NCBI GenBank assembly: GCA_019313385.1
Contig: JAFDBG010000006.1
Location: 1 to 37,238, forward strand
DNA: 37,238 nucleotides
Reading direction: 5' to 3'
Source of the DNA: Deltaproteobacteria bacterium
GTDB lineage: Bacteria > Desulfobacterota > Syntrophia > Syntrophales > UBA2210
The translations under genes were made by a program, and so were the position numbers. How positions within the stretch are numbered: position 1 is the stretch's first letter; every line of letters begins with the position of its first letter. Below are positions 7,931 through 25,182 of the stretch, in pieces. Below the pieces are notes generated by a model. The model searched no databases and had not been told where the DNA came from. It saw only the letters and a program-made list of their open reading frames with translations.

Positions 7931-9535
7931 ATGGAGAAAGAGTACGATTTTCTGGTGTTGGGCAGCGGTATAGGTGGGCTATCCTTCGCCATAAAGGCGG
8001 CGGAACTGGGAACCGTCGCGGTTGTTACAAAAAAAAGCAAGGTTGAATCGAATACGAACCATGCACAGGGAGGTATCGCTGCCGTTACCGATAATAATGA
8101 CAGCTTCGAATCTCACATAAACGATACACTGAAAAGCGGTGCAGGACTGTGCAAGGAAGACGTGGTGAGATTCGTCGTAACGGAAGGACCCGAAAGGATA
8201 AAGGAACTTATCGAATGGGGCGTGAACTTCACGAAGGAGGGAGACAACACGTCGGGTGCCTATGACCTCGGGAGAGAGGGAGGGCACAGCCGCAGGAGGG
8301 TCCTTCACGCTGAAGACCTCACCGGCAGAGAGATAGAACGGGCGCTGATTGAAAAGGCCGCCTTACAGAAGAACATTACAATCTATGAAAATTTCTTTTC
8401 AATAGACCTCATCTGCAAGTCTAAACTTACCGGCCATAAAGAGGAAGAAGACCGGTGTCTCGGGGCATATGTCTTTGACGTGGACAAAAACATCGTTCAT
8501 ACCTTCAGAGCGAAATTTGTCATGATCGCCACAGGGGGATCGGGAAAGGTTTACCTGATTACCACCAATCCCGATATTGCCACGGGTGATGGGGTTGCAA
8601 TGGCCTACAGGGCCGGTGCCGAGATCGCCAATATGGGATTCATTCAGTTCCATCCCACCTGCCTGTATCACCCCGCCGCGAAATCCTTTCTCATAAGCGA
8701 GGCTGTGAGGGGCGAGGGAGCTGTACTGAAGCTCAAGAATGGCTCCACATTCATGGAGAAATACCACACTATGAAGTCACTGGCCCCCAGAGATGTCGTC
8801 GCCAAGGCGATAGATACAGAGCTGAAAAAATCAGGGGATGAATACGTCATTCTGGATATTACACATATGAGCAAAGAATTTCTCGTGAAAAGATTTCCTT
8901 ATATCTACAACAGGTGTCTTGAGTTCGGCATCGATATGGCCGTCGATCCCATACCGGTTGTCCCAGCGGCCCATTACCAGTGCGGAGGTGTACTGGTGAA
9001 TCCCTTCGGTCAAACCAGCATTGATCGCCTTTTCGCGTTCGGAGAGGTCGCCTGTACGGGCCTTCACGGTGCCAATCGTCTTGCCAGCAATTCCCTCCTG
9101 GAGGCCCTCGTGTTCACACACAGGGCGTTCAAGAAAGCCAAAGAGCTCCTGCCAGCGGTGGCGAAAGAGTCCCTTCTAATCCCTCCTTGGGATCCTAAGG
9201 GTGCGACCGAGAGTGACGAATCGATCATGGTCTCGCATAACTGGGAGGAGATCAGAATGTGCATGTGGAACTACGTGGGCATCGTACGGTCTGACAAGAG
9301 ACTGGAACGAGCGAAGAGGCGGATTGACATGATAATAAGAGAGATAGAGGAGTACTACCATAATTTCACCATAACAACCAATCTGCTCGAACTGCGCAAC
9401 ATAGCCATCGTGGCCAGGATCATTATCGAGTGCTCGTGCCTCAGGAAAGAGAGCCGGGGTCTTCACTACAATCTTGATTATCCTGAAAGAGACGATGTCA
9501 ACTGGATAAAGGATACTGTGGTAAAAAAGGACTAA
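7931..9535 (+). CDS. nadB: L-aspartate oxidase NadB
   Basis: GSGIGGLSFAIKAAELG FAD motif, NHAQGGIAAV, EGGHSRRRVLHAEDLTG, GEVACTGLHGANRLASNSLLEALVF; start chosen at MEKEYDFLVLG. Confidence 0.95.
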   Translation: MEKEYDFLVLGSGIGGLSFAIKAAELGTVAVVTKKSKVESNTNHAQGGIAAVTDNNDSFESHINDTLKSGAGLCKEDVVRFVVTEGPERIKELIEWGVNFTKEGDNTSGAYDLGREGGHSRRRVLHAEDLTGREIERALIEKAALQKNITIYENFFSIDLICKSKLTGHKEEEDRCLGAYVFDVDKNIVHTFRAKFVMIATGGSGKVYLITTNPDIATGDGVAMAYRAGAEIANMGFIQFHPTCLYHPAAKSFLISEAVRGEGAVLKLKNGSTFMEKYHTMKSLAPRDVVAKAIDTELKKSGDEYVILDITHMSKEFLVKRFPYIYNRCLEFGIDMAVDPIPVVPAAHYQCGGVLVNPFGQTSIDRLFAFGEVACTGLHGANRLASNSLLEALVFTHRAFKKAKELLPAVAKESLLIPPWDPKGATESDESIMVSHNWEEIRMCMWNYVGIVRSDKRLERAKRRIDMIIREIEEYYHNFTITTNLLELRNIAIVARIIIECSCLRKESRGLHYNLDYPERDDVNWIKDTVVKKD

Positions 9536-9556
9536 GAAAGATTGAAGGGCTGAATC

Positions 9557-10834
9557 ATGAATGAAGAACAGATAAAAAAGACCCCTCTGCATGACTGGCA
9601 TCTGGAACATGACGCCAATATGGCCGTATTCGGCGGATACGAGATGCCCCTCTGGTATCCTTCAGGGGCGAAGCGGGAACACATTGCGGTCCTCAAGGGC
9701 GCCGGAATATTCGATACAAGTCACATGGCAGTTATTATGGTTGAGGGTCCCGGTGCGTTAACCCTTCTACAGACCTGTTTTACCAAGAACCTGGAGACGT
9801 GTATAGGAAAGGACAAGACCCCTCTCGTGCCTGGAAGATGCGCCTACGGCATTTTTTTAGACGATCTGGGGCATGTTATGGACGACGCTATCGCCTCACA
9901 AGTGGCACCGGAGATATACATGATTGTTGTGAACGCCGGAATGGGCGGACAGATCGCCCGTCACCTGAAAGATCATGCAGGTATGTCAGATGTCGCGATC
10001 TACGATCTTACCGACGGGGTCGGAAAGATGGATATACAGGGGCCCATGTCCGCCAGGATATTGGCGGAGATACTCAGAGAACCGGAAACGGTGTTTGATC
10101 GGATGGTCTATTTCAGCTTCAAGGGATTTTTTGATGAAAACTCCCCTCTTGCGGATGCCGTGCGCCTTTCGGACGGCACCCCTGTCATGCTTTCACGCAC
10201 CGGCTACACCGGCGAGTTCGGCTTTGAGATATTCTTGAATCCCGATAATATCGAGCACGTATGGGAAATAGCGCTGAAGGCGGGAGCTGATTTCGGTCTT
10301 GAAATATGCGGTCTCGCCGCACGCGATTCTTTGAGAACAGGTGCGATGCTTTCCTTGTCCCACCAGGATATCGGTCCCTGGCCATTCATCAACAATCCTT
10401 GGAGCTTCACCCTTCCCTTTAATGACGACCGAACGGATTTCACCAAAAGATTTATAGGTGAAGAAGCCCTTAAAAATATTAAAAAGATGGAATATACCTA
10501 CCCTTTCGCAGGCTTTGATCTGCGAAAGGTTTCCCTCGGAGATTCGACGGTTGTAACAGACTCCGATGGCGCCGAAATCGGCGTTGTCCTAACCTGTGTA
10601 ACCGAGATGGCCATCGGCCGGGTGGAGGGAAGGATATACAGCGTAGCCAGCCCGGACAGACCGGATGGATTCAATCCGAAGGGGCTTTCCTGCGGGTTTG
10701 TCAAGGTAACAAAAAAACTGTCCCTCGGAGACACCGTGGAACTGAAGGATGGCAGACGAACCATAAAGGTTGTAATCGTGGATGATATCCGCCCCGATCG
10801 CACCGCGCGCAAGGCAATCAAGAACATGCTGTAA
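9557..10834 (+). CDS. gcvT: Glycine cleavage system T protein (aminomethyltransferase)
   Basis: GYEMPLWYPSGAKREHIAVLKGAGIFDTSHMA, SRTGYTGEFGFEIFL, CGLAARDSLRTGAMLSLSHQDI; precedes gcvH and gcvPA/PB. Confidence 0.93.
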   Translation: MNEEQIKKTPLHDWHLEHDANMAVFGGYEMPLWYPSGAKREHIAVLKGAGIFDTSHMAVIMVEGPGALTLLQTCFTKNLETCIGKDKTPLVPGRCAYGIFLDDLGHVMDDAIASQVAPEIYMIVVNAGMGGQIARHLKDHAGMSDVAIYDLTDGVGKMDIQGPMSARILAEILREPETVFDRMVYFSFKGFFDENSPLADAVRLSDGTPVMLSRTGYTGEFGFEIFLNPDNIEHVWEIALKAGADFGLEICGLAARDSLRTGAMLSLSHQDIGPWPFINNPWSFTLPFNDDRTDFTKRFIGEEALKNIKKMEYTYPFAGFDLRKVSLGDSTVVTDSDGAEIGVVLTCVTEMAIGRVEGRIYSVASPDRPDGFNPKGLSCGFVKVTKKLSLGDTVELKDGRRTIKVVIVDDIRPDRTARKAIKNML

Positions 10835-17400: not shown

Positions 17401-18168
17401 TCAGGAAAGTCTCTTAGATAATTCTAAACTAGAGGGTCTGCTGCCGAGCATAAATAGAAGAAAAGCAACTACAATTCCAGCAGCACCGACAATAAAAATG
17501 TAGATTGCCGGGGATTTATTAATGATTACCAGGATCTGTTCATCCGACAATTCCTTTTCATTCATACCGACATGAAAGCTGTATCCCATTGAGAAGTCCG
17601 GTTTCATCGATTCGGGATATATTGTTGCGATCTCACCTGCTAAATCCTTGATGGTGATGGATGCCCGGGTGCCCATGCGAATCTTTTTGCCGGCAATATC
17701 AAGCTGAATCCGTTGAAGCATCACGGGTTCCAGAGATAGCTGAGTCCCCGTCAGTTGGCCGACAGCGCCCTTTTCCAAAATGAGGGTTTCTGAGCTTCCC
17801 GTACACTCATAGACAAGATGACCGGAAAGAAACAGCAAAAAACTGAGATGAAAGAGAATAATGCCGACCTTTTTTATTGTCATTCCAGATTGCTTTGTGT
17901 TTTTTATGTATGCCCATGTGCATAAACATGTATTGATGCCGAGCACCAACAGCACGGCAAAGAGGACAAAGATCCAGACATACAAAATGGGCCGATCACG
18001 ATACAGGGCCAGCCATTCGAACAACAACATAAAATTAAGGGTATGGAAGTCATCGGAGTTAATATCTACGATGATCGCACCGGCAAACAACAGCACCGAT
18101 GCTGCCAGCAGCAGGTAGAGACCTGGCTTAATCTGTGAAAGAAAGGTCCACGCTCCCCGTCTGCTCAT
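17401..18168 (-). CDS. ResB/Ccs1-like membrane protein (short, ~255 aa)
   Basis: MSRRGAWTFLSQIKPGLYLLLAASVLLFAGAIIVDIN, four hydrophobic segments with a periplasmic beta-rich loop and C-terminal TM; start overlaps the upstream gene stop (ATGA). Confidence 0.65.
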   Translation of the reverse strand: MSRRGAWTFLSQIKPGLYLLLAASVLLFAGAIIVDINSDDFHTLNFMLLFEWLALYRDRPILYVWIFVLFAVLLVLGINTCLCTWAYIKNTKQSGMTIKKVGIILFHLSFLLFLSGHLVYECTGSSETLILEKGAVGQLTGTQLSLEPVMLQRIQLDIAGKKIRMGTRASITIKDLAGEIATIYPESMKPDFSMGYSFHVGMNEKELSDEQILVIINKSPAIYIFIVGAAGIVVAFLLFMLGSRPSSLELSKRLS

Positions 18169-18914
18169 ATCAGCACTCCCAGAAGTTCGATAATTTGATG
18201 ATGGTACACCATAAAAACAACGGGGATGATCCCGACTATCGTAATCAGTGCCTTCGATTTCGTATTCATACCGACATATCGTAAATGGATTGCCGCGCCG
18301 TAGAAACACCAGATGGACGCGCTCGACAGGTGACGGGTGCTCCATGAGAATGGATAGGACCACCCGATAAAGGCCCAAATCGCTCCGAGAATCTGGCACA
18401 GGGTAAATATCACAAAGCCCCACAGCACCAGCCTGTTCCAAGACTCATTGACAGAAGAATTTACCAAGAGTGCTGCAAAGGCTAACGCACCTGACATCAG
18501 GAAAAATGCCGCGCTTACGCCTTCACTTAAAAAAAAGAACGACGCAACCATAACCTTCGTTTTAATAGATGGCATCGGGGGATCGGTTTGGACAATGACG
18601 GCAATAAAAGTTACCAGTAACAGCACTCCCATAACTGTCATGGCCTCATTCCTGCCCTTTCCCCGTATAACCGGATAGGCCAAAAGTGCCATCACAGCCG
18701 GGATCAGGCGAAGTTCATCAAGCATCGGAAATAAGTACCAATCGCCCCCGATGTAACCAAGAGATATGAGGGCGACCAGATTAACGACGAACCCCGCCAT
18801 TATCAGAAATGAGCCGAAATGGCGCACACGAAAGAAAGTCAGAACGGTAGACATGGCATAGAGAACCAGCGCCGCAACCATGCAATATTCAAAAAACCCG
18901 GAATTTAAGTCCAT
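18165..18914 (-). CDS. CcsA/CcmC-like cytochrome c assembly family membrane protein with degenerate WWD region
   Basis: Multi-TM; GAIWAFIGWSYPFSWSTRHLSSASIWCFYGAAIHLRY aligns by eye with the CcsA tryptophan-rich motif (GA.WA...WG.YW.WDP.E.W.L..W..Y...LH.R) but lacks the WDP. Confidence 0.65.
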   Translation of the reverse strand: MDLNSGFFEYCMVAALVLYAMSTVLTFFRVRHFGSFLIMAGFVVNLVALISLGYIGGDWYLFPMLDELRLIPAVMALLAYPVIRGKGRNEAMTVMGVLLLVTFIAVIVQTDPPMPSIKTKVMVASFFFLSEGVSAAFFLMSGALAFAALLVNSSVNESWNRLVLWGFVIFTLCQILGAIWAFIGWSYPFSWSTRHLSSASIWCFYGAAIHLRYVGMNTKSKALITIVGIIPVVFMVYHHQIIELLGVLI

Positions 18915-18941
18915 ATTTTGTAGAATCGAATTATTTCAACA

Positions 18942-20090
18942 TCATCTCAGACTGATCACCTCAATCTTCTGTACCGACTTGACATGTCGGTCAGCGGAAA
19001 GATCATCAGATGTTACTAAGAAAAAACGGCCCCTTTTCTTGACTTTCTCTCCTGCCATCATGTCGCCGATAATAATGTTTTTCCCCGCCGGGGACATAAA
19101 CAGCTCACCATAAGACAATAATGTGCGATACCCGTCAGGCGCGGAAATAATAATCGCTGAATCGAGGTCCCGCTGTATCCCCGCCTCCTCAAGTAACTGT
19201 ACAAGAGAAACTCCTTCGAACAGCTTCAGACCATGGTATCCTTGCCCATCACCTACTTCCTTAAAAAGAGTTACGGTACGATCAATAGCAGGCAAAGCAT
19301 CAAAGGTCATTGATTTGACTCCGTAACCCGAAACCGTAAATTGTGGAGCAAAAAGGCCTTTCTGCTTTTGTTGAGGAACCTTGGGATGTAAATCCACAAC
19401 CTCGATAGAGGCTATTCCCTCCAGAGATCGATCCGAGTAAAAATCAGAAGCAAGAACAAGTTTTGGAAACCCTACTTTACGTTCGAGCTGTTCGAGCCAA
19501 GGATGGAATTTCTTCGGGATCTTATCCTTTTCATGGTGGGGAATAATGGGACATGCCTCAAATGCGATGATGACATTCGAAGGATTTCGATAAAAAATCT
19601 CTCCCCAGGAAAGAACAATCTTTTGTCCCTTTTTGTCCTTTACAACAATGGCAAGATCAAGGTCCTTGTTGAAGTCGGGATTTTTTTTCTTTATACCCGC
19701 AAATTCAAGCAAAGATCTGAGCGCGGGACCACGATAAGTGAAAGCTCCATGGTACCGACCATCCCGTGATACTTCATTCAATCTGACTTCGCTACACTCG
19801 AAGCGGTTAAGATCCTTCGCCGACAGGGACACGGCTTGTCCTACCTCACCCGTTATCAGTAAATCTTTGCCGGTCAGCAGATGGTCCCGGGGTTCCATCA
19901 GCGCGAGTTTCTGCGATAGATTGCTGATTTCTTCGTGCACCCGCGACAATTCCTTACTGACTTCTCTGTCACCCGGCGAATCCTGGCATCCGAAAACGAG
20001 CAAGAGAACTAACATAGAGCACAGCATTGACAAGACACCGCATGTCCTGTCTTTAATCTTTAAAAAATATTGTTTTCCCCTCTTTTCCAT
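18942..20090 (-). CDS. Lipoprotein with two tandem domains resembling the oxidoreductase molybdopterin-binding fold (PF00174-like)
   Basis: Lipobox-like LLLVFGC; repeated pattern DGRYHGAFTYRGPALRSLLEFAGI...KIVLSWGEIFYRNPSNVII and DGQGYHGLKLFEGVSLVQLLEEAGI...RTLLSYGELFMSPAGKNIII. Confidence 0.65.
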   Translation of the reverse strand: MEKRGKQYFLKIKDRTCGVLSMLCSMLVLLLVFGCQDSPGDREVSKELSRVHEEISNLSQKLALMEPRDHLLTGKDLLITGEVGQAVSLSAKDLNRFECSEVRLNEVSRDGRYHGAFTYRGPALRSLLEFAGIKKKNPDFNKDLDLAIVVKDKKGQKIVLSWGEIFYRNPSNVIIAFEACPIIPHHEKDKIPKKFHPWLEQLERKVGFPKLVLASDFYSDRSLEGIASIEVVDLHPKVPQQKQKGLFAPQFTVSGYGVKSMTFDALPAIDRTVTLFKEVGDGQGYHGLKLFEGVSLVQLLEEAGIQRDLDSAIIISAPDGYRTLLSYGELFMSPAGKNIIIGDMMAGEKVKKRGRFFLVTSDDLSADRHVKSVQKIEVISLR

Positions 20091-20094
20091 ATGT

Positions 20095-20493
20095 TCACGT
20101 CCTTTCCGTGGCAATTGTGAATGTAGATGCGCCGGCACGCCTGACTTCGTCAATGACTTTGACCAGAAGACTCAGAGGTATCGTTTCGTCAGCTTTGATT
20201 GTGACAGGACAATCGGGAAACCTCATAAGTTCACGGCGCAATTTGTTGCAGATCTCTTCCATTAAAACTTTCCTGTCTCCTATATAGAGCCCGCCCTTTT
20301 CGGTCACCAGGAGAATGATTTCTTCTATGGTCGCCGCATCGGATGTTGCGGATGTGGGCAGCGCCACTTCTATGGAAGACGACACCATAATACGCGAAGT
20401 GACCATAAAAAACAGGAGGAGTATAAAAACGACATCGACGAGCGGCGCGATATTTGTGTGGAGAAGGACTCGTTTCCTTCTTTCAAATTCCAT
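20095..20493 (-). CDS. exbD: ExbD/TolR family biopolymer transport protein
   Basis: NIAPLVDVVFILLLFFMVTSRI typical ExbD TM with conserved Asp, follows exbB. Confidence 0.92.
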   Translation of the reverse strand: MEFERRKRVLLHTNIAPLVDVVFILLLFFMVTSRIMVSSSIEVALPTSATSDAATIEEIILLVTEKGGLYIGDRKVLMEEICNKLRRELMRFPDCPVTIKADETIPLSLLVKVIDEVRRAGASTFTIATERT

Positions 20494-21037
20494 CCCGTTC
20501 TCCCCTGGCGTGTTGAAATACCACCCCCTTCATCCTGAGTGATATATCTTCTAATTGTCCTTCAAGATATAGATAGGCGACTTCTACAGGAATTGCCACT
20601 AGCAGACCGGCCGCTGTCGTTATCAATGCCTCCCAGATACCTCCGGCGAGATACGCCACGTTAGTAGCACCGTTCTGGATGGCTATCATGCGGAAACATT
20701 CAATCATGCCAAGCACTGTCCCCGTCAATCCCAGCAGCGGAGTGATAGCCGCAACCAAAGAAAGTACACCGACTCCCTTCTCGAGCGAATGTAACTCACG
20801 TCCGCCAATCAGAGATATCTCTTTTTCTTCCGCCCCGTTCACCAAGGCGCCCAGCATCTGTCTTATCTGTTCGGGTTTTGATTCCAAAAGCTCATTCAGA
20901 GGCCGTCCGAGTTGCTGGATCAGGGTTTTGAACATCACTGCTTTATAAATGGTAATAGCCAGGGCAAGCACCGAGCAAAACAGAATAGGCCACATCAGCG
21001 GACCACCCTTCAGAAAAAAATCTACCATATCTGTCAC
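20483..21037 (-). CDS. exbB: ExbB/TolQ/MotA proton channel family protein
   Basis: LKGGPLMWPILFCSVLALAITIYKA; LSLVAAITPLLGLTGTVLGMIECF; EALITTAAGLLVAIPVEVAYLYL. Confidence 0.95.
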   Translation of the reverse strand: MTDMVDFFLKGGPLMWPILFCSVLALAITIYKAVMFKTLIQQLGRPLNELLESKPEQIRQMLGALVNGAEEKEISLIGGRELHSLEKGVGVLSLVAAITPLLGLTGTVLGMIECFRMIAIQNGATNVAYLAGGIWEALITTAAGLLVAIPVEVAYLYLEGQLEDISLRMKGVVFQHARGERDGI

Positions 21038-21783
21038 CTCAGTTTAAACCGAATTGGCAACATCGCTTTGCATGCAACGGGTCTGCCGTTTCTTCGTGCC
21101 GCGATAAATAACGAATTTTTGACTGCTGCTATCGCCGCGTCGTCAAAACCAGTGCCACTCGTTTCTAGAATTTCAACATCAATCAATTCGCCCACCTCGT
21201 CAATTGTCAACATCAGAACAACGACACCGGTTTTGCGTAACCGTCGTTCCTTGAACGGATATTCAGGCAGCATTCGCTTCAAAAAACGCGGACCCTCGGC
21301 GGAGCCGAAGGCAACTTCGAGCGGCGGATCTGTTACTGTTTCCTGTATGCTGGGACCGGCAACCGACGGCCTCTGTGCCGGCGCTTCCTGATGTTGCATA
21401 CTATACTCAGGCACAACGTGTTTCGCCACAACATCAATTTCGGGTTTACTTTTGGGCGGCACCGGGGATCGCAGAATCTTTGTTTCGGGTTTCGCGTCTT
21501 TTACAGGCTTCTCTTTCTTCGGCGGCTTTTTCCGCACCACCTCTTCCCTGCGCACCTTTTCTATCGCTGGTTTCTCCGGTTGCACCACGCATGGCGGGGG
21601 TTGAGCTTTTTCCTTCTTCTCAGGAGGAACCTCTTGTTTAACCGAATTCACCGCGATTCCCGTTCTCTCGGTAACAACAAAGACAACCCTCTTCACCTCA
21701 CCCTCGATGTGCCCTTGTAAGGGACACAGCATAAGGGCAAAATGAAAAACAAGAGCAATGATCACACACTGCCTGAAGGTCAT
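21034..21783 (-). CDS. tonB: TonB family protein
   Basis: N-terminal TM, Pro/Lys-rich linker, C-terminal LPEYPFKERRLRKTGVVVLMLTIDEVGELIDVEILETSGTGFDDAAIAAVK. Confidence 0.93.
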   Translation of the reverse strand: MTFRQCVIIALVFHFALMLCPLQGHIEGEVKRVVFVVTERTGIAVNSVKQEVPPEKKEKAQPPPCVVQPEKPAIEKVRREEVVRKKPPKKEKPVKDAKPETKILRSPVPPKSKPEIDVVAKHVVPEYSMQHQEAPAQRPSVAGPSIQETVTDPPLEVAFGSAEGPRFLKRMLPEYPFKERRLRKTGVVVLMLTIDEVGELIDVEILETSGTGFDDAAIAAVKNSLFIAARRNGRPVACKAMLPIRFKLR

Positions 21784-21873
21784 TACATATCTCTCAAACC
21801 GTTACTCAACGCTGTTTTTAAAGACTTCGGTCGTCTCCATTCCTGGGGACGGCCGAAGAAGAGCAACCGGGGT

Positions 21874-23937
21874 TTAAAACTTTGCCGTCAGGCCGCAGAT
21901 AACACTTCTCCCCTCACCAGGAAAGCCATATTGCTCTTCGTATGCATAATCACAGAGGTTATTGCCGGCCACGTACAATTCGAAATATTTCGATACGGGC
22001 TGTGTAATTCGAGCGCCGAAGAGCCAGTAATTATCGGCCTCATTTGTAAGCGTCGGATACTTGGACGTAGGAAGATCGGAATAGATCTCCGCTCGATAAA
22101 CCCCCGTCATGTCGACTCGTGTCTTGAATCTGGGCACCGTATACTGGATCGCGAACTTGAGCGCATGTTCGGGAACATCAGTAACATTGTCAGTCAAGCG
22201 GCCGTCGCTTCTGTCCCGCGCGTCCGTGTAGGTATATCCCGCGTTCAATGTCAGATCGTCGATGGGAGAAATAAATGTGTTGAACTCAACCCCTGACATA
22301 GTGATCTTTCCCCAGTTCATATAATCATTGTCGCCATAGGGACCGTCGCGGCTGATCCAGTCCGAAACGTCGTGATGGAAAAGAGAAAGCTCAGCGCTTA
22401 TAAACTCAAAGAAGGTCCGTGAAATCCCCAGTGTATAGTTGATGCTCTGTTCCTCGTTCAGTTCCTGGTTTCCTGATTTTCCATAGAGTTCACTCAGAGT
22501 GGGGAAACGGGTCTTCTGTGCCACTGAACCGAACAGTTTGGTTGAATCGGCAAAGGTATAAACCATACCAATCATGGGATTAACAGCCTTCTTCGTCCCC
22601 GGTGTCGTCGAATCTTCCACCACCTGATCATAATCGCCGTTCTCTTGGGCATCTGTAACATCGAACCAGTCGTAGCTGACCCCCACCACGATAGAAAGAT
22701 TCTTTATCATGGCGAATTCATTCTCGATAGCTATTGATCCCGTATTCGACTTTGATTCTTCAAAGGGCAGATAGGCATCATCACGCTGCTCATGTGAATC
22801 AACTGTGTAGTGAAGGGCGCAGCTCAACGTATCCCATTCGGTGGCCTTGTAATCGGCAAGAAGGCTGCCTCCGGCCATGTAGTCTTTATAGGTACTCTCG
22901 GACATAGGAGTTGAATAGGTAGGATCCGTATAGGAGACATAATCATCTGTGTGGTTGTGGTAAAAAAGCTTTTCCCGCAGCGTCAGTTTACCGGTAATTT
23001 TCTGTCTGCCGCTCAGGTCGATCCCCCAGTCATCGTAGTTTTCACTCCGGGCCAGTTGTGAAAAAGCAGGTTTTGTAGGGCTCGCTGTATTATGTTTGTT
23101 TTCACGGATTGACAGCGGCATCCCCTTTTCCGACTGAATGACATGAAGATTGACGTAGTATTTTGAATCGGCTGTCGGTTCAAGACCGAACTTTGCCCAG
23201 AAGGCATCGGTCCTGGAATCGGAATTGTTGCGAACTCCACCATCTTCCAGAATGGCATATGCCTTGCCTTTCTTATTCCCATACCACCCCACCACTGGAT
23301 CGAAACCGTTTGCCATATCCCATCCATCGGTCTCCTGGTGTGAGTAATTCAGCCAGTAGCTGAATTTTCCTATCTTCATTCCATTGTAAACGGATTCTTT
23401 ATTATAATGATTCTCGCCGAACTCCACGTTTGCCCCTATCGCAGGTTTTTCGGTTGGCGCCTTGGTTACAACATTGATGACACCCGCCTCGGCGTTGGCC
23501 CCGTAGAGAACGGAGGCGGCACCCTTTATCACCTCGATCTTTGCCACGATATCGGTCGGTATCTGATTCAGGTCGAGCTTCCCATACTTGGTCTCGTAGT
23601 AGGGGACACCATCGATAAGAACCAGCACCTTGTGTTGCTTAAATCCGTGCATATAGATTTCCGGCTCCGATTTCCGACCGGTAACAACGTAAAGACCGGG
23701 CACGTGATTAAGGGCCTCGGAAACGGTCGTACTGTTCGTTGCCTGGATTTCCTCGGCCGTGATTGTATTCGTCACGGCTATGTCACGAACAGCCGATGCT
23801 TTTCCTGATACGACAATTTCTCCCAAGTCGTATACTTCATAGTCTTTCGCATCTGCATTTTCGTCGCACCAACCGGGATTCGAAAATAACGATAAGGTAA
23901 AAACTAATAGCAGTGCCGATAAAAGTCTTACATTCAT
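21874..23937 (-). CDS. TonB-dependent outer-membrane receptor
   Basis: DLGEIVVSGKAS TonB-box-like region, plug domain (VSEALNHVPGLYVVTGRKSEPEIYMHGFKQHKVLVLIDGVPYYE...IEVIKGAASVLYGANAEAGVINVVTK), beta-barrel ending ..SVICGLTAKF. Confidence 0.95.
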   Translation of the reverse strand: MNVRLLSALLLVFTLSLFSNPGWCDENADAKDYEVYDLGEIVVSGKASAVRDIAVTNTITAEEIQATNSTTVSEALNHVPGLYVVTGRKSEPEIYMHGFKQHKVLVLIDGVPYYETKYGKLDLNQIPTDIVAKIEVIKGAASVLYGANAEAGVINVVTKAPTEKPAIGANVEFGENHYNKESVYNGMKIGKFSYWLNYSHQETDGWDMANGFDPVVGWYGNKKGKAYAILEDGGVRNNSDSRTDAFWAKFGLEPTADSKYYVNLHVIQSEKGMPLSIRENKHNTASPTKPAFSQLARSENYDDWGIDLSGRQKITGKLTLREKLFYHNHTDDYVSYTDPTYSTPMSESTYKDYMAGGSLLADYKATEWDTLSCALHYTVDSHEQRDDAYLPFEESKSNTGSIAIENEFAMIKNLSIVVGVSYDWFDVTDAQENGDYDQVVEDSTTPGTKKAVNPMIGMVYTFADSTKLFGSVAQKTRFPTLSELYGKSGNQELNEEQSINYTLGISRTFFEFISAELSLFHHDVSDWISRDGPYGDNDYMNWGKITMSGVEFNTFISPIDDLTLNAGYTYTDARDRSDGRLTDNVTDVPEHALKFAIQYTVPRFKTRVDMTGVYRAEIYSDLPTSKYPTLTNEADNYWLFGARITQPVSKYFELYVAGNNLCDYAYEEQYGFPGEGRSVICGLTAKF

Positions 23938-23997
23938 GAAAATATCTCCTCCTGTGTTTCTGAAATAGCCTTTCTGCTCTTATTTTTGAGCGGGGTG

Positions 23998-24025
23998 AAC
24001 ATATCATAACAAAACACGTTGTCAA
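23998..24025 (-). promoter_or_regulatory. Predicted sigma70-like promoter for the TonB-dependent receptor
   Basis: Reverse strand TTGACA (24025-24020), 16-nt spacer, TATGTT (24003-23998). Confidence 0.4.
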
Positions 24026-24104
24026 GCCCTGAAATGACATATTCTTACATTTATGGATTAAATATAATCGATGCTTACCTATAATAACCTACAGTACTTT
24101 ATAT

Positions 24105-24133
24105 TGACATATGATTACAGTTTGTGTATCTAC
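24105..24133 (+). promoter_or_regulatory. Predicted sigma70-like promoter for the WtpA-like gene
   Basis: TTGACA (24105-24110), 17-nt spacer, TATCTA (24128-24133). Confidence 0.45.
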
Positions 24134-24195
24134 GCTAAACGATTATTCTGATCTATTGAATAAAATAAGAAAGTAACAAAGAGAGGATATGTGGT

Positions 24196-25182
24196 ATGAA
24201 ATCAAGAAATATTTGGAAAATTGGACTGTTAACTGTAGCAGTTATCCTGCTTGTGGCCCTTACAACCCAGGGCTTTGCCGCGCCTAAAGGTAAAATCGTC
24301 ATATTCCACGCTGGAAGCCTTTCGGTTCCCTTCGCTGCAATGGAGAAGGCATTCGAAGCACAGTATCCGAATGTTGATATTCAGCGTGAGCCGGCTGGAA
24401 GTCAAAAATGCGCCCGAAAGATTTCAGATCTGAAAAAGCCCTGCGATATCATGGCATCAGCGGACTACAAGGTAATTGATTCACTGCTCATACCAGCCTA
24501 TGCAAACTGGAATATTCGCTTTGCCACCAATCAGCTTGTTTTATGCTATACCGCTCAAAGTAAATACGCAGATACAGTTAGCACTGAAAACTGGTATGAA
24601 ATTCTGCAAAAAAAAGATGTTGTCTGGGGGCATTCGGATCCCAATGTTGATCCCTGTGGATATCGTTCCTTGATGGTTCTTCAATTAGCCGAAAGATATT
24701 ATAAAGATCAAGGCCTTTACAATGCAGTGATCGCCAACCGTCCCGACGAAAACATTCGGCCGAAATCCGTTGAATTAATCTCGCTGCTACAAACGGGAAA
24801 CATGGACTATGCCTGGGAATATCGTTCTGTCGCTGTTCAGCACGGGCTGAAGTACATTAGTCTGCCCGATGAAATAAACCTGGGAAATTACAAATTTGAC
24901 GATTTCTACGCCCAGGCAGTCGTAAAGATAACAGGAAAAACACCGGGAACATTTATGAACATTAAAGGAAAATCGTGTACTTATGGAGTAACATTAATCA
25001 GAGATGCACCAAACAGGGACGCAGCCCTTGCCTTCCTGAGATATCTGCTTGATCCAGAGGGCGGCCTGAAGATATTAAAGGAAAGGGGTCAGCCACCCTT
25101 TATCCCCGGCCGCGTCTCCACTGCCGAAGAGATGGCGATGCTGCCAGCTATTTTGCAGGTTGAGGTGGAAATTAAAGATTAA
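24196..25182 (+). CDS. WtpA/ModA-type tungstate/molybdate ABC transporter substrate-binding protein
   Basis: Signal peptide then [89 protein letters not shown]. Confidence 0.85.

Follow-up and report, generated by a model that had tools for sequence, protein, structure and literature searches.

A TonB-dependent receptor and tandem lipoprotein cluster as a candidate uptake system for tungsten and/or molybdenum in Desulfobacterota

Introduction

Do some bacteria possess a dedicated energised route for tungsten or molybdenum across the outer membrane? The common assumption is that tungstate and molybdate cross it via porins and that specificity begins with the periplasmic binding protein. The question is raised by a gene block of a deltaproteobacterium of the Syntrophales, located at positions 17401-25182 of a 37,238-nucleotide stretch (hereafter the window) of contig JAFDBG010000006.1. 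The block runs on the minus strand in the order TonB-dependent receptor, TonB, ExbB, ExbD, tandem-domain lipoprotein, CcsA-like protein and ResB-like protein, and the gene of the binding protein WtpA is divergent from it on the plus strand. It is established for these families that TonB energises receptors and that WtpA, TupA and ModA bind tungstate and molybdate oxyanions. We suggest, with a probability of roughly 60%, that the cluster serves to take up tungsten and/or molybdenum in a TonB-dependent manner.

The source assembly (GCA_019313385.1) comprises 2.15 Mb in 138 contigs, and the window lies within one of them. The genome encodes five proteins of the aldehyde ferredoxin oxidoreductase type (the tungsten family) and four molybdopterin oxidoreductases, two of the latter with TGA in frame, a feature of selenocysteine enzymes. 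A high demand for tungsten and molybdenum is plausible.

Conservation of the cluster

Locus L008, from a second species in the genus, carries the entire block, including the divergent wtpA gene, in the same order with 78-85% identity; hence the juxtaposition is not due to chance. A scan of genome contigs with the lipoprotein yielded two close relatives only. A lipoprotein profile search gave matches, some of them weak, in 13 of 155 genomes of the class and in 38 of 395 genomes of the phylum. A TonB receptor is within reach at 26 of the 33 lipoprotein loci, and many relatives also carry ExbB, ExbD and TonB, the CcsA/ResB pair and an APC-family permease. Since gene content varies among the relatives, we regard the unit as mosaic in make-up, the receptor and the tandem lipoprotein being its stable core. 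For the original prediction, made from the window sequence, a lack of conservation as a unit was to count as refutation; the prediction withstood this test, the entire unit being kept in the second species and the core across the phylum. WtpA as a fixed member was not supported, as other lineages have TupA, ModA or no such protein nearby. The APC-family permease is present at many loci with a fused lipoprotein (L030-L033, L062-L064, L066, L071, L073, L074 and L079).

Tungstate and molybdate genes at related loci

Genes for tungsten or molybdenum transport or its regulation were found at 12 of the 33 lipoprotein loci and at one of 40 control loci (Fisher p=3e-4). The controls were other TonB-receptor loci of the same 14 genomes, searched with identical reference proteins and thresholds; these reference proteins were drawn from the lipoprotein loci, which may favour those loci somewhat in the comparison. 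The association persists when the window genus is left out (10/31, p=7e-4) and when one of the near-identical loci L068 and L069 is also omitted (9/30, p=0.0015). The sole positive control, L121, contains a cluster of a receptor, a methylase and a TupA-like protein, and its receptor belongs to the sister clade described below. FecCD-type importers, on the other hand, were found near 7 of the 40 control receptors and at one lipoprotein locus.

The neighbouring genes differ from locus to locus. L011 contains the receptor, lipoprotein, TonB, ExbB, ExbD, a TaoR-type regulator, two TupA proteins, TupB and TupC, and additionally a xanthine-dehydrogenase-type enzyme. L072 contains tupAABC, TonB, the lipoprotein, the receptor, ResB, CcsA and a ModE-type helix-turn-helix (HTH) protein, and L077 contains a ModE-type HTH protein, CcsA, ResB, ModABC, a lipoprotein-methylase fusion and the receptor. 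In L082, an open reading frame (ORF) of 596 aa (8477-10267) fuses a TupA-type domain to a tandem lipoprotein domain with a CxxCH motif; next come a ModE-type HTH protein, TupA, TupB and TupC. In the L068/L069 pair, WtpA is encoded between the lipoprotein and the receptor on one strand, and in L064 the receptor is divergent from a TaoR-TupA pair. A TaoR-type regulator without further tungsten or molybdenum genes is present in L010 and L083. Enzymes also occur: TupA, FmdE and a molybdopterin oxidoreductase in L071, and a formate dehydrogenase adjoining the cluster in L030 and L033. Among more distant lipoprotein relatives, L086 is located by wtpABC and L088 by an aldehyde ferredoxin oxidoreductase. 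The dedicated energised outer-membrane route linked to tungstate or molybdate that had been proposed for the window is supported by independent neighbourhoods and by the TupA-lipoprotein fusion.

Proteins of the FmdE family were observed by these receptors in L062 (1938-4259), L071 (3724-4488; exported and Cys-rich) and L114 (2542-3276). In L062, a DUF364-like ORF, recognized by eye, and a methyltransferase are also beside the receptor.

Gene block of the window and its receptor

All eight predicted genes were confirmed in place, with start codons corrected for the lipoprotein and the ResB-like protein. The short overlaps noted earlier in the minus-strand run were measured at TonB/ExbB (4 nt), ExbB/ExbD (11 nt) and CcsA/ResB (4 nt, ATGA). 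The receptor (21874-23937, minus strand, 687 aa) contains a plug (PF07715, 4e-25) and a barrel (PF00593, 9e-33), both over the Pfam cut-offs. Downstream on the same strand are TonB (21034-21783; PF03544, 8e-18), the ExbB/TolQ-type proton channel (20483-21037; PF01618, 3.2e-24) and ExbD (20095-20493; PF02472, 2.1e-28). TonB, ExbB and ExbD are encoded together with the receptor, with overlaps among their genes, and would be its own energiser. The genome has three TonB receptors in total.

In the receptor tree, the window receptor clusters with lipoprotein-linked receptors of other loci. All 24 lipoprotein-linked receptors group together with one other, from L114, which adjoins CcsA/ResB, a methylase and FmdE at a contig end. 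Two label changes were observed on the tree versus 18.9 in shuffles. On this tree, the receptors of the system form essentially one clade.

The sister clade includes receptors of L092 (contig 63 of the same genome), L103 and L108, which adjoin ECF-type transporter genes (CbiO/CbiQ-like). In L092 an 'IDDTDN' protein is additionally encoded beside the receptor. These loci are possibly another undescribed uptake set for a cofactor or metal.

WtpA and the divergent promoter region

WtpA (24196-25182, plus strand) is identified by the NCBIfam equivalog model, scoring 455 and 386 bits against cut-offs of 355 and 242.75, and matches the solved archaeal WtpA relatives at 1e-76. No wtpB or wtpC gene was found in the window, so that no permease is alongside. 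A second WtpA, 75% identical, is encoded in the same genome on contig 48 together with WtpB and WtpC. In archaeal WtpA, the carboxylates of Asp153 and Glu218 provide the octahedral ligands. The Asp is kept in the window WtpA, and the Glu column, as provisionally assigned, is aligned as Ser. Both WtpA copies of the genome (24196-25182 and L014:2597-3640) have this apparent Ser for the ligand Glu, with a Glu nearby in WEY.

The receptor and wtpA have a common putative divergent promoter region (23938-24195). Set against L008 and against the stretch between the TaoR and wtpA genes elsewhere in the genome, the region is seen to be kept in the sister species and to contain AT-rich repeats. Divergent from the wtp genes of contig 48 is a regulator with HTH_17 and PBP_like domains, which is the architecture of TaoR, a regulator of tungstoenzymes and of tungsten and molybdenum transport (PMC11980592; cited in PMC10102598). 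When the receptor/wtpA promoter was compared with TaoR-linked promoters, an 18-mer with a -35-like TTGAC scored slightly over 15 shuffles; other widths did not.

Tandem lipoprotein

The periplasmic lipoprotein (18942 to about 20090, minus strand; start codon ATG at 20090) consists of two domains of the sulfite-oxidase fold. PF00174 is over its cut-off for the second domain, and the first is apparent only from structure prediction. In an AlphaFold2 model built from 27 sequences (predicted local distance difference test, pLDDT, 87) both domains are of the sulfite-oxidase type. Foldseek matched the model to sulfite dehydrogenase (E about 1e-7), to YedY (1xdy) and to PruR (7kom, 7kou and 7rkb; E about 2e-5, TM-score to target 0.62-0.69). 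The fold search was required, as sequence searches of the PDB with each domain alone gave chance matches only. PruR is devoid of the molybdenum-ligand cysteine; its ligands are small pterins and probably do not include the full molybdenum cofactor (PMC13259868). Across the 27 relatives the core domains contain no conserved cysteine; the window lipoprotein has one (ECSEV) near the presumed molybdenum-ligand column.

Two additions are common among the relatives and absent from the window copy. A CxxCH motif follows PIxPH in most relatives and in none of the window genus. Many relatives have a tetrapyrrole-methylase (PF00590) domain at the lipoprotein C-terminus, behind a signal peptide. Exported PF00590 domains, fused or separate, were seen in L012, L029-L033, L063, L064, L066, L067, L071, L073, L074, L077 and L079. 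These domains resemble cobalt-precorrin-4 methyltransferase; many carry a Cys within the first glycine loop, GxGC(A/G)D versus GxGPGD, and an intact GDPxxYG-type motif. S-adenosylmethionine is not expected in the periplasm, to which the methylase-fold domains are exported.

CcsA-like and ResB-like pair

The CcsA-like membrane protein (18165-18914, minus strand) has a degenerate WWD motif. It matches the CcsB model TIGR03144 at 3.5e-8, under the curated cut-off, and its profile matches solved CcsA at E=0.017. The family keeps P-His2 and the tryptophans in the motif alignment; in the branch of the window a Ser replaces the WWD aspartate, and P-His1 is not conserved. The other CcsA/HemX protein of the genome, encoded beside hemA, has its motifs intact.

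The short ResB-like membrane protein (17401-18168, minus strand) is nearly invisible to sequence hidden Markov models (Pfam ResB, E=0.22). Translation most naturally begins with the ATG at 18168, which overlaps the stop codon of the CcsA-like gene; the longest ORF, starting with TTG at 18441, is too long. The AlphaFold2 model (pLDDT 85) matches CcsBA 7s9y (E=1.3e-6) and CcmF 6zmq in Foldseek, and H107 and H117 are invariant among the relatives. No ResB over the cut-off was found elsewhere in the genome.

The original prediction had taken CcsA and ResB as ordinary System II components of cytochrome c maturation. This could not be upheld: as the CcsA-like protein has lost a heme histidine as well as the aspartate of WWD, the pair is not a canonical System II. 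The pair is present in 8 of 9 loci with a lipoprotein devoid of CxxCH versus 8 of 15 with CxxCH. It does not track the motif and thus is not simply the heme lyase of the lipoprotein, and a dedicated lipoprotein heme lyase as the sole explanation was rejected.

Proposed pathway and alternatives

In the proposed pathway, the receptor would bind an extracellular tungsten or molybdenum complex, which its own TonB-ExbB-ExbD, by analogy with the established function of the family, would drive across the outer membrane. The tandem lipoprotein could bind the complex or its organic part in the periplasm and aid release of the oxyanion. WtpA would then capture tungstate or molybdate and pass it to WtpBC, a presumably shared permease whose genes lie at another site of the genome; in other lineages TupABC or ModABC could take the role of WtpA. 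As for the CcsA/ResB-like pair, we speculate that this diverged membrane unit handles heme and probably gives heme or electrons to the periplasmic step. The imported metal would serve the five tungsten-type aldehyde oxidoreductases and formate-dehydrogenase-type enzymes.

Several observations weigh against this pathway. No operator or riboswitch tying the window genes to tungsten or molybdenum levels was found. The nearest solved receptor is BtuB, the match being confined to the plug. When the association is counted by family with the window's family omitted, it weakens to 7/17 versus 1/13 (p=0.09). Many copies have no tungsten or molybdenum gene in reach, in some cases owing to contig ends. 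L073 and L074 are beside cobalamin genes and L065 contains a FecCD/BtuCD-type ABC transporter; such genes would suit a different metal or a tetrapyrrole. Finally, the methylase domain of many lipoproteins is unexplained by a plain oxyanion pathway, and the exported methylase-fold domains favour a tetrapyrrole or another organic ligand part.

As one alternative, the receptor could take in a tetrapyrrole, be it heme, a corrinoid or an unusual metalloporphyrin, which the methylase-fold domains would bind and the CcsA/ResB pair would move across the inner membrane. The relationship of the numerous exported domains to cobalt-precorrin-4 methyltransferase, the CcsA/ResB fold and the CxxCH of most lipoproteins agree with it, as does the proposal by Aklujkar et al. 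of novel porphyrins for metals besides Fe and Co (PMC3543383); the cobalamin neighbours and the FecCD transporter keep it alive. However, it leaves the repeated tup, wtp, mod, TaoR and ModE neighbours and the TupA fusion unaccounted for, the window copy has neither the methylase domain nor CxxCH, and an Rfam search for cobalamin or molybdenum cofactor riboswitches across 25 loci detected none. We consider this explanation unlikely, if still a serious one. Alternatively, the receptor could import a pterin-containing tungsten or molybdenum complex, either released cofactor or a pterin-based metallophore. The PruR-like lipoprotein would grip the pterin and strip the metal for WtpA or TupA, with CcsA/ResB as a redox or heme step, making the system one of cofactor salvage; this variant is tentative and rather unlikely.

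Two further explanations would dissociate the cluster from tungsten and molybdenum. In one, CcsA/ResB serves to attach heme to a c-type cytochrome encoded in the cluster (in most cases the lipoprotein), and an ordinary iron or cobalt chelate enters through the receptor. The CxxCH motif of most lipoprotein relatives and the CcsBA/CcmF fold of the ResB-like protein speak for heme attachment, but the distribution of the pair, the lost WWD aspartate and P-His1, and the concentration of FecCD-type importers at control receptors make it improbable. In the other, the receptor-TonB-lipoprotein cluster lies next to wtpA by coincidence, and what the receptor binds has no connection with either metal. 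The opposite strand of wtpA and the lineages with no wtpA nearby could be read in this way. It is nevertheless very doubtful, since differing tungsten and molybdenum genes recur at independent loci in excess over the control receptors, wtpA is in the operon in L068/L069, and L082 encodes the fusion.

If uptake of tungsten and/or molybdenum is the function of the cluster, it would explain how many tungsten enzymes are fed in anaerobes where these metals are scarce or bound by sulfide or organic matter. The range of substrates handled by TonB receptors would grow by tungsten and molybdenum, a family of exported PF00174 proteins that annotation often lists as oxidoreductases would gain a function, and the CcsA/ResB folds would be seen in use beyond ordinary cytochrome c maturation.

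Comparison with known systems

The literature search found no characterised TonB system for tungstate or molybdate. The route of Pseudomonas aeruginosa via its type VI secretion system, ModA and IcmP (PMC8602904) was considered as a precedent and set aside as a different idea. The pieces of the cluster are not entirely new. The 2012 genome paper on Pelobacter carbinolicus, in its part on these genes, noted TonB receptors in the neighbourhood of molybdopterin-binding proteins, c-type cytochromes and tetrapyrrole methyltransferases; metal transport and novel porphyrins were suggested there (PMC3543383). The kinds of neighbours are the same; that part of the paper defines no system, no link to TupABC, WtpA or TaoR, and contains no CcsA/ResB analysis. 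The claim of an undescribed system therefore stands as to characterisation and yields as to the earlier notice of its pieces.

The cluster resembles TonB-dependent uptake of metals and metallophores (BtuB, the siderophore receptors and the pseudopaline receptors) in its plug and barrel, dedicated TonB-ExbB-ExbD and periplasmic partner. It differs in that the inner-membrane partners are recurrently tungstate or molybdate importers rather than iron or B12 importers, and in the addition of a sulfite-oxidase-fold lipoprotein and a CcsA/ResB-like pair. The window wtpA and the tupABC, modABC, TaoR-type and ModE-type genes of related loci connect it to WtpABC, TupABC and ModABC with their regulators TaoR and ModE. 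In contrast to those systems, which have no outer-membrane component, a TonB receptor set is attached here and the window wtpA has no adjoining permease. PruR, an exported sulfite-oxidase-fold domain, is similar to the lipoprotein at the fold level (E=2e-5, TM-score 0.69) and likewise has no conserved core cysteine. Unlike the single-domain PruR, the lipoprotein has two tandem domains, often with CxxCH or with a fused tetrapyrrole methylase or TupA. The membrane pair is similar to System II (CcsBA/ResBC) in combining CcsA-like and ResB-like proteins, in the ResB-like fold, and in P-His2 and the transmembrane histidine of ResB, whereas its ResB is much shorter, the WWD aspartate and P-His1 are lost, and its presence is not tied to CxxCH.

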